Part shown: in pieces, positions 35,419-37,399 of the stretch
How positions within the stretch are numbered: position 1 is the stretch's first letter
Layout: the number at the start of each line of letters is the position of its first letter
NCBI GenBank assembly: GCA_031286325.1
Contig: JAITUT010000094.1
Span: forward strand, 1-38,636
Direction: 5' to 3'
DNA: 38,636 nucleotides
Source: Helicobacteraceae bacterium
GTDB lineage: Bacteria > Campylobacterota > Campylobacteria > Campylobacterales > SZUA-545
Notes under the pieces: model-generated
Databases searched by the model: none
The model's input: only the letters and a program-made list of their open reading frames with translations
What the model was told of the DNA's origin: nothing
Made by a program: the position numbers and the translations under genes

Positions 35419-36669
35419 TCACTTGGCGTTTTCTATATCGTTTCCTAACGAAATTCTATAAAAACACTTATCGCTAAATCGCAAGATCATATTGAAGTAG
35501 CAATTTTTTAAATACGGAAAAAACTTAATTTGCAGTCGTTGTATCCCACGCATTTTTATTTTGATGGGGGATTTAAGGCAAAGCGCGAGAGTTTGCAAAT
35601 TTGTTCTCCACGCTAATGGTAAGGATTTAATTTCTTTAATTGCTTTTTTGGGGCGGCGCAACGCGTAACTAAAGGGAATTAGCTTAGAAAATATGGGTAT
35701 ATAGTCTCTATGATCGCTTTCTGTTGAATGGAACACAAGAGCCATATTTTTTATATCTTTTGCGCTCGGATTATCGCAAAAGATATTTATCCATTCAACG
35801 AGCGTCTTAGAATCTAAAAATATATCGTTTCCGCCGAAAATTTCTTTAATATCTTGCGCGAATAATAACGCGCCGTTTGATACGGCGGGGTATAAATTTT
35901 TGCGAGTTGTTTCATATTCGGTTGGGTTTTGATCATATATTGGCGAGCCGCTAGCGTCTATACCTTTGATTGGGTATTCGGGCGCGGTCAGCAACAACTC
36001 GACAAAATCCCAATTTTTTATATTTTTGTGCGTCTTCCAATCGCAGAAGTTTACATTTTGATCAATATTTGCGCGGCTAGCGTCTATTATTGTCCAATAA
36101 ATACCATATATTTTCCGCCGCAGCGCGTCTTCTAATAATCTTTGAACCGAAAACATACCCGTTATGGTTTCTACAAAACAAATTTTATCGTCAACTACAA
36201 TTCGCGAAAGATAATTTTTGTATGGTTCATACTCTTTATCCGCTAATTTTTCAATAACTTCGCGGTTGTTTAATATAAAATTATGATAATCAATAGAATC
36301 GTTAAATATCACAGATTCATAAGCGCTCTTTAAATCCGCGCTTTTTTTAATATAATAATCAACAATAATTTTTGGTTGAAATTGATGTCTTTTCTCGTAA
36401 TCTAATCTGCATATTAAATTCAAAAATCTCGGCGCGTATACATAATTTCCTTTCATATCGGCGTTAAAAGTCTCAAAAACTTTTTGCAAAGTGTAGCCGT
36501 CCCGCGCGATAAACAAAATTTGCTCAATATTATTTTGTTTCGCTTGCGCCTCTATAAATCTGCTATATCCGTAAGCGACCGCGCCCGCGTATTCATAGCC
36601 GATCTCAAACCAATAATCGGTCTCTAAAATCCCCAACATTTTCTTTTGCCAACGTATTGCGAGCAGCAT
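35419..36669 (-). CDS. C-terminal half of a split HAD-type glycan protein (currently out of frame)
   Basis: The 416-residue frame contains IEQILFIARDGYTLQKVFET and is the kind of domain that follows the HAD domain in COG5610-type proteins from polysaccharide loci. Its first Met is inside what should be one gene: the frame is open upstream through the (CT)21 tract, where it meets the HAD frame one base out of register. Adding one CT unit or losing two would give one protein of 660 or 658 residues. The last 57 or so residues are nearly identical to the end of the methyltransferase at 37473-38423. I see no good ribosome site at ATG 36669, so it is probably not translated alone. Confidence 0.8.
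   Translation of the reverse strand: MLLAIRWQKKMLGILETDYWFEIGYEYAGAVAYGYSRFIEAQAKQNNIEQILFIARDGYTLQKVFETFNADMKGNYVYAPRFLNLICRLDYEKRHQFQPKIIVDYYIKKSADLKSAYESVIFNDSIDYHNFILNNREVIEKLADKEYEPYKNYLSRIVVDDKICFVETITGMFSVQRLLEDALRRKIYGIYWTIIDASRANIDQNVNFCDWKTHKNIKNWDFVELLLTAPEYPIKGIDASGSPIYDQNPTEYETTRKNLYPAVSNGALLFAQDIKEIFGGNDIFLDSKTLVEWINIFCDNPSAKDIKNMALVFHSTESDHRDYIPIFSKLIPFSYALRRPKKAIKEIKSLPLAWRTNLQTLALCLKSPIKIKMRGIQRLQIKFFPYLKNCYFNMILRFSDKCFYRISLGNDIENAK
35449..35599. repeat. 151-bp direct repeat, copy 1 (3' end of the split HAD gene)
   Basis: It matches 37488-37638 at 148 of 151 positions in the same orientation. It encodes the shared C-terminal tail with KSPIKIKMRGI and FFPYLKNCYFNMILRFSD. Confidence 0.95.
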
Positions 36670-37399
36670 TAAAAGTATGCTCGCGCCTATGCTCTCTCTC
36701 TCTCTCTCTCTCTCTCTCTCTCTCTCTCTCTCTAAGCAAAAAAGCGCGTTTGTTTGATCGCAAAAATTGGGACTTTAATTGCCTGTATAAAACTGCGGAA
36801 ATTTTATTATTTTCCGCGCTTTTATAATCGGCGTTTTTATTATCGCCGATGTGCAAAATTTCTTGCGGCGAAACCTGCAGATCATTTAATATATGTTTAT
36901 ATAAATTTCCGCTCGCTTTTGTTTTGCCAATTTCGCTTGAAACATATAGGCGATCAAAACCCTCGAAACCATTTTTCTTCAAAGCCGCCGCCACAAAATC
37001 CGTAGGCAAATACATATCGCTCGCGATCACGATCGTTTTGCCCGCTTTTCGCGCGTAATCATAAACCTCTTTTAGTTCTGGATTTTGGCGCAAAACCATC
37101 ATCTCCCATTCAAGCTCAACATTTTTTAGCGGCTTAAATTGATCGTCGATTTCCATATAAATATCATCAAAAGTTATCTCCTCGCGATCGGCTCTGCGGC
37201 GGCGCGCGTCATATTCCGCCTCGACGCGCTTTTGACGAAAACGCGGCGCGTTTTTAGCCATTTCAATATGCGAAAAGAGATCGGTCGGCTCCAAATACGG
37301 GCGCAAAAGCAGGGTGTCAAAGACGTCAAAAGAGACGACTCGCGCGCGGTCAATTCGACCTTTAATTTTCGCTAAGAGCGTTCGCGGCTGATTAAACAT
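36605..37399 (-). CDS. N-terminal HAD domain of a phase-variable glycan protein (OFF state)
   Basis: The first about 222 residues form a HAD domain: motif I VVSFDVFDTLLLRPY, motif II IVIASDMYLP, a lysine region with GKTKASGNLY, and motif III/IV ILHIGDNKNADY. Then seven Arg-Glu pairs are encoded by 21 AG units, and 28 residues without a family pattern follow before a stop. The wanted continuation lies in another frame (35419-36669). The product now is thus a truncated 264-residue protein. AAAGG six bases before ATG 37399 is a good ribosome site, and the short gap upstream may hold its promoter. Confidence 0.85.
   Translation of the reverse strand: MFNQPRTLLAKIKGRIDRARVVSFDVFDTLLLRPYLEPTDLFSHIEMAKNAPRFRQKRVEAEYDARRRRADREEITFDDIYMEIDDQFKPLKNVELEWEMMVLRQNPELKEVYDYARKAGKTIVIASDMYLPTDFVAAALKKNGFEGFDRLYVSSEIGKTKASGNLYKHILNDLQVSPQEILHIGDNKNADYKSAENNKISAVLYRQLKSQFLRSNKRAFLLREREREREREREREHRREHTFNAARNTLAKENVGDFRDRLLV
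36692..36733. repeat. (CT)21 dinucleotide tract inside the HAD gene
   Basis: Twenty-one perfect CT units (AG on the coding strand) lie within the reading frame. The distance from ATG 37399 to ATG 36669 is 730 bases, one more than a multiple of three, so 19 or 22 units bring the two halves into frame and 20 or 21 do not. This has the form of a slipped-strand switch. Confidence 0.95.

Follow-up and report, generated by a model that had tools for sequence, protein, structure and literature searches.

Two open reading frames (ORFs) on the minus strand of contig JAITUT010000094.1, from a draft genome of a Helicobacteraceae bacterium (order Campylobacterales), are separated by a long run of CT units, which raises the question of whether they are two genes or a single gene interrupted by a repeat of variable length, and of which enzyme such a repeat would control. 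The whole stretch analyzed, 38,636 nucleotides, is hereafter called the window, and positions refer to it unless another locus is named. We consider it probable that the locus is one ribofuranosyltransferase gene, switched by slippage of an (AG)n tract and sequenced in a broken allele, and this was the best explanation of the data.

One gene interrupted by a dinucleotide tract

The 21 CT units of the tract (Table 1) are all perfect, and 100 dinucleotide-preserving shuffles returned no run of 10 units, even allowing 2 mismatches, indicating that the tract is far beyond chance. As expected of a repeat switch, it is long and perfect, lies inside the coding region and has a unit that is not a multiple of three. 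The ORF1 and ORF2 frames are one base out of register across it, as described in an earlier note on this DNA. Frame arithmetic distributed the possible unit numbers (n) into three classes. In the joining class, n = 16, 19, 22 and 25 produce fused proteins of 656, 658, 660 and 662 residues respectively, in agreement with the two lengths predicted by the earlier note for 19 and 22 units. In the class of n = 21 the Arg-Glu (RE) run is followed by an out-of-frame tail of 28 residues ending at a stop at 36605; the sequenced allele is in a broken class, namely the OFF state that had been proposed. In the third class (n = 20, 23) a TAG at 36687-36689 terminates the HAD protein directly after the tract. 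The earlier note had also stressed that the tract encodes Arg-Glu in both useful frames, which is true but not special to those two, as it is a trivial property of (AG)n in all three frames. Apart from the tract, no stop or frameshift was found across about 650 codons, leaving one break only. Because the tract lies at the domain junction, every state would keep a full phosphatase; the HAD domain is predicted to be complete in all frame classes, with the transferase alone being gated.

A single-sequence scan of genome contigs found no relatives, whereas an alignment-based scan of named genomes succeeded, yielding 44 sequences related to the C-terminal part. The nearest of these belong to metagenome-assembled genomes (MAGs) of gut Alphaproteobacteria (42-44% identity), a Rickettsiales MAG (40%), Acinetobacter (39-40%) and Helicobacter bilis (36%). 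Overall, identity to the window was 41-60% for the HAD part and 25-44% for the C-terminal part, where most matches begin at residue 1 or 2 after the tract. In most relative records the frame runs upstream into the HAD domain and the open frames mostly span about 615-680 residues, being longer where a further domain is attached. Single-chain examples include open frames of 658 residues in Acinetobacter, 678 in H. bilis and 650-680 in the Alphaproteobacteria MAGs, so that uninterrupted homologues of 640-680 residues, as named in the earlier note, are indeed present. Nearly all two-domain relatives carry both domains in one chain and not as two separate proteins, whereas the sequenced allele of the window is broken at the tract. 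At the junction the window reads SIGASILLMLLAIRWQKKML, H. bilis LGASILLGLKALHWQKKCL and the Rickettsiales MAG VDAGILVMMLAMRWQKKMLG, and none of the relatives examined has a repeat at this point.

A profile of 648 positions, built from 16 uninterrupted relatives, was then searched over 15 genomes of the family. On the window, this full-length profile is shared between two frames: that of ORF1 covers profile positions 2-221 and that of ORF2 covers 217-646, and the change of frame falls within the tract. Judged by this homology, ORF1 and ORF2 are one gene, and the two-domain protein split by a repeat that had been proposed was borne out.

ORF2 had been called mechanically from its first ATG. Homology in this frame extends upstream of that codon and comes within one or two residues of the tract, and the AlphaFold model of the C-terminal part (mean predicted local distance difference test of 90, confident from the first residues) has its first helix at residues 2-19, which the ATG, being residue 9, would cut. 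A true start at this ATG was therefore considered unlikely: lying within that helix, the codon is probably not the native one.

Table 1. Position of the features discussed, in the window unless a locus is given
Feature	Position	Strand	Remarks
ORF1: HAD phosphatase (residues about 1-222), RE run, out-of-frame tail	36605..37399	-	264 aa; PF00702 E=2.9e-12; CrpP-like
ORF2, mechanical call from first ATG (36669)	35419..36669	-	416 aa; ATG inside the domain's first helix
C-terminal phosphoribosyl-glycan transferase (gPRT, CriT-like), own frame, from SIGASILLM directly after the tract	35422..36693	-	From relatives, profile, model and fold matches
(CT)21 on the plus strand, (AG)21 on the coding strand, at the junction of both domains	36692..36733	-	Arg-Glu in every frame
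Asp of RDG motif, aligned with Bcs3 CriT D680	36499..36501	-	Invariant among aligned relatives
Glu of FVETITG (E175), aligned with Bcs3 CriT E818	36169..36171	-	Asp in most relatives; D/E column
S-adenosylmethionine (SAM) methyltransferase gene, directly upstream, 73-bp gap	37473..38423	-	PF13489 E=3.8e-18
Direct repeat copy A, native 3' end of the HAD-gPRT gene	35443..35599		152/157 identical to copy B; tail native to the family
Direct repeat copy B, 3' end of the methyltransferase ORF	37482..37638		152/157 identical to copy A
Compound (AC)11(AG)18, near the start of a GT8 glycosyltransferase gene	L009 3044-3101 (G000:C5)		Frame broken
TC tract of 18 units, early in a type III mod-like DNA methylase gene	L010 2906-2942 (G000:C17)		Frame broken after MTEARQ

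Predicted enzyme and mode of switching

No Pfam or NCBIfam family recognises the C-terminal domain, and a phmmer search of the PDB gave no match, so that profile and fold searches were required. COG5610 was the first, tentative candidate for the family. The C-part profile matched Bcs3, the capsule polymerase of Haemophilus influenzae b (E=2.9e-7), while the full-length profile matched Bcs3 over both domains (E=6e-37) and the polysaccharide ribofuranosyl transferase 7SHG over profile positions 5-556 (E=2.7e-22). Foldseek searches with the window C part returned Bcs3 (E=2e-8) and 7SHG (E=5e-7), with a probability of 1.00 and template-modelling scores of about 0.45-0.50 by query length, and no other structure reached an E-value below 0.01; a modelled full-length relative matched the same two structures with E=5e-23 and E=9e-21 respectively.

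In Bcs3, CriT transfers ribofuranose-5-phosphate from phosphoribosyl pyrophosphate (PRPP), and dephosphorylation by the HAD enzyme CrpP follows, activity being fully or partly lost upon alanine exchange of D386 (CrpP), D680 or E818 (CriT) (PMC10299916). All three carboxylates have aligned counterparts in the window, where the Asp nucleophile of HAD motif I is present as Asp25 in SFDVFDTL, aligned with TFDIFDTL (D386) of Bcs3, and the two transferase residues are listed in Table 1 (numbering counted by hand, with a tag offset of three). A HAD and transferase pair also makes the ribose linkage in the Klebsiella pneumoniae O4/O7 antigens (PMC11231755) and, in Cj1432, that of the Campylobacter jejuni capsule (PMC12096443). 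Because of the profile and fold matches to Bcs3 and 7SHG, the aligned carboxylates and the same domain pair in Cj1432 and Klebsiella O4/O7, the gene most likely encodes a dual-domain PRPP-dependent ribofuranosyltransferase, consisting of a HAD phosphatase and a gPRT. The description as a HAD glycan protein given by the earlier note was supported and could be sharpened accordingly.

We propose that the gPRT domain would transfer ribose-5-phosphate from PRPP onto a growing surface polysaccharide, after which the N-terminal HAD domain would take off the 5-phosphate and make chain extension possible. The (AG)n tract would have replaced and lengthened the inter-domain junction, and slipped-strand mispairing would alter n by whole units, moving the reading frame by two bases per unit. 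One n class in three would then give the complete enzyme, while the other two would leave a complete HAD phosphatase with the transferase domain lost or untied, and a glycan devoid of ribose. Phase variation of the HAD-gPRT gene is strongly implied; slippage in the living population, the enzymatic activity, the glycan acceptor and the effect on the surface are inferred.

It is unlikely that the HAD and transferase domains instead work in trans as two proteins, ORF2 being translated from its own ATG by reinitiation, in which case the broken frame would matter little. The single chains of nearly all two-domain relatives, the ATG within the first helix and the homology reaching upstream to the tract all argue for a fused enzyme, even though ORF2 is open for 416 codons and the CroT-CrpP and CriT halves of Bcs3 can be combined in trans (PMC10299916). 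Coupling would be poor in the sequenced class, where the HAD stop follows the ORF2 ATG by about 60 nt, and no clear ribosome-binding site was found, whereas in the third class the TAG lies 17 nt before that ATG. Since this class ends the HAD protein so close to the ATG and the Bcs3 halves work in trans, a coupled split enzyme is possible. The locus might then be a three-state device, alternating between the joined enzyme, a coupled split pair of HAD and transferase, and a HAD protein with a tail and little or no transferase, with ribose transfer graded by n; we regard this as rather improbable.

AG/CT tracts in the genus and origin of the gene

Elsewhere in this genome only two CT/AG tracts of at least 11 units were found, in a GT8 gene and in a type III mod-like gene (Table 1), both of which are classic contingency targets; these out-of-frame tracts support the reading of the window tract as a switch. 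A survey of the genus for tracts of at least nine units that fit the scanned pattern, with totals summed from tables, gave 44 tracts in 7 of 7 genomes (about 6 per genome), as compared with 32 tracts in 20 of the 392 genomes from the rest of the order (about 0.08 per genome). Among the targets are lipoprotein signal sequences, SAM methyltransferases, a DegT aminotransferase and a dTDP-sugar epimerase, besides an unassigned gene family that is interrupted mid-gene. The earlier note had considered a dinucleotide tract in such a position less usual, which does not hold in this genus: AG/CT tracts are commonplace there, and the position within a gene is found for others as well. In three congeners, the tract at a shared N-terminal site of related methyltransferases has 12, 11 and 10 units; one of these genes is in frame and two are not. 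The mid-gene family carries 16, 9 and 14 units. As related genes differ in unit number at the same site, these tracts evidently change length in the genus, on the comparison of sequences. CT tracts were also observed just before the lipobox of lipoprotein-like ORFs in congeners and in a sister genus (L034-L037, L046, L050, L054, L057, L061, L062), a recurrent design for a switchable surface lipoprotein.

Searches with ORF2, the HAD domain and the full profile retrieved the copy in the window and, beyond it, nothing but matches to the RE run and two short fragments from other genera, and the HAD-gPRT gene was absent from the six other genomes of the genus. Its GC content is 36-44%, compared with 50-55% in neighbouring housekeeping genes. 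Since it is missing from congeners, is lower in GC and most closely resembles genes of other phyla or classes, the gene was most likely acquired, the tract being gained afterwards. These same features would suit a decaying foreign gene in which the tract had expanded with merely inactivating effect; however, the lack of any further stop or frameshift, the retained catalytic residues and the agreement of tract type and target class with the genus-wide pattern make decay quite improbable.

A distant relative in a Helicobacter-clade genus is broken in 2 of 9 genomes (L020, L021) by an (AT) run that lacks two of the units present in intact relatives, at a different site, within the transferase domain. 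This is an independent case of dinucleotide length change in the same enzyme family. Longer Helicobacter relatives of about 930-970 aa (L022, L023, L087) have an extra N-terminal region ahead of HAD and gPRT, which in L022 looks glycosyltransferase-like by eye, with a layout like that of Bcs3 and Cj1432. In a sister genus, a 28-residue remnant of the HAD start was observed (L111, G135:C6:6608-6691; E=1.8e-9), perhaps a relic of the same gene.

An assembly or sequencing error hiding a constant, in-frame count is very improbable, as 42 bases fit inside ordinary reads and a perfect tract of about 20 units is expected from known repeat behaviour to slip anyway, although the genome is a draft MAG, errors are common in repeats and the ends of several contigs lie close to poly-C tracts.

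Several points nevertheless weigh against a ribofuranosyltransferase gene switched by slippage. Switching is deduced from one assembled allele; the genome is a 96-contig assembly, in which n is a consensus and possibly miscounted; and the absence of the gene from the six congeners leaves no orthologous tract length for comparison. Furthermore, Bcs3 and 7SHG are only remotely similar, at 12-20% identity when aligned by structure, and both the enzymatic activity and the ribose in the glycan are predictions.

As for the neighbourhood, the SAM methyltransferase gene and the HAD-gPRT gene are probably co-transcribed; promoter and terminator scans gave results near chance and were not used. The last ~58 codons of the methyltransferase ORF are a copy of the 3' end of the HAD-gPRT gene. 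The resulting direct repeats A and B flank the HAD-gPRT gene, and their recombination would delete it entirely. Upstream of the methyltransferase, at 38548-38568, a poly-C run of 21 stops 68 bases short of the contig end. In all, 29 poly-C/G runs of at least 8 occur in the genome and, because many of them are close to contig ends, the assembly seems to break at such runs. A minus-strand polysaccharide cluster at 5354-18133, including a GT2-GT8 fusion and a UDP-glucose dehydrogenase, is a possible source of the acceptor glycan.

Significance and comparison with known systems

Repeat-controlled surface-glycan genes are known; for the target enzyme proposed here, a ribofuranosyltransferase, an open-access literature search found no earlier report of phase variation. 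The analysis names the likely enzyme behind a phase-variable locus in a little-studied lineage of Campylobacterales and predicts the surface change, i.e. ribofuranose present or absent. Across the genus, the AG/CT repertoire covers lipoproteins, methyltransferases, sugar-nucleotide enzymes, glycosyltransferases and mod and offers a second contingency code alongside poly-C, and the HAD-gPRT gene looks like an acquisition later fitted with the lineage's own type of switch.

Frame control by AG repeats has been documented for Mycoplasma mod, where Mod activity is present in a clone whose AG count has changed (PMC3498834), and proposed for the Helicobacter pylori DNA methyltransferase gene hpyAVIBM (PMC3411764). 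In these genes, as in the window, an AG dinucleotide tract in the coding region shifts the frame, but their targets are DNA methyltransferases and the tracts are shorter (4-12 units). As regards the enzyme, Bcs3 CrpP-CriT (PDB 8A0C/8A0M) shares with the window gene the order of HAD followed by transferase and the catalytic carboxylates, whereas a repeat tract at the junction is not mentioned for it (PMC10299916). The Klebsiella O4/O7 enzymes and 7SHG from Thermobacillus composti likewise have two domains and similar length (648 aa for the 7SHG chain), but are remote in sequence, and no report of their phase variation was found. Finally, although Cj1432 is fused to an N-terminal GT4 domain and the available part of its description reports no dinucleotide tract, its M and C domains pair a HAD phosphatase with a ribose-5-phosphate transferase, as in the window gene, and they act on a capsule in the same bacterial order (PMC12096443).
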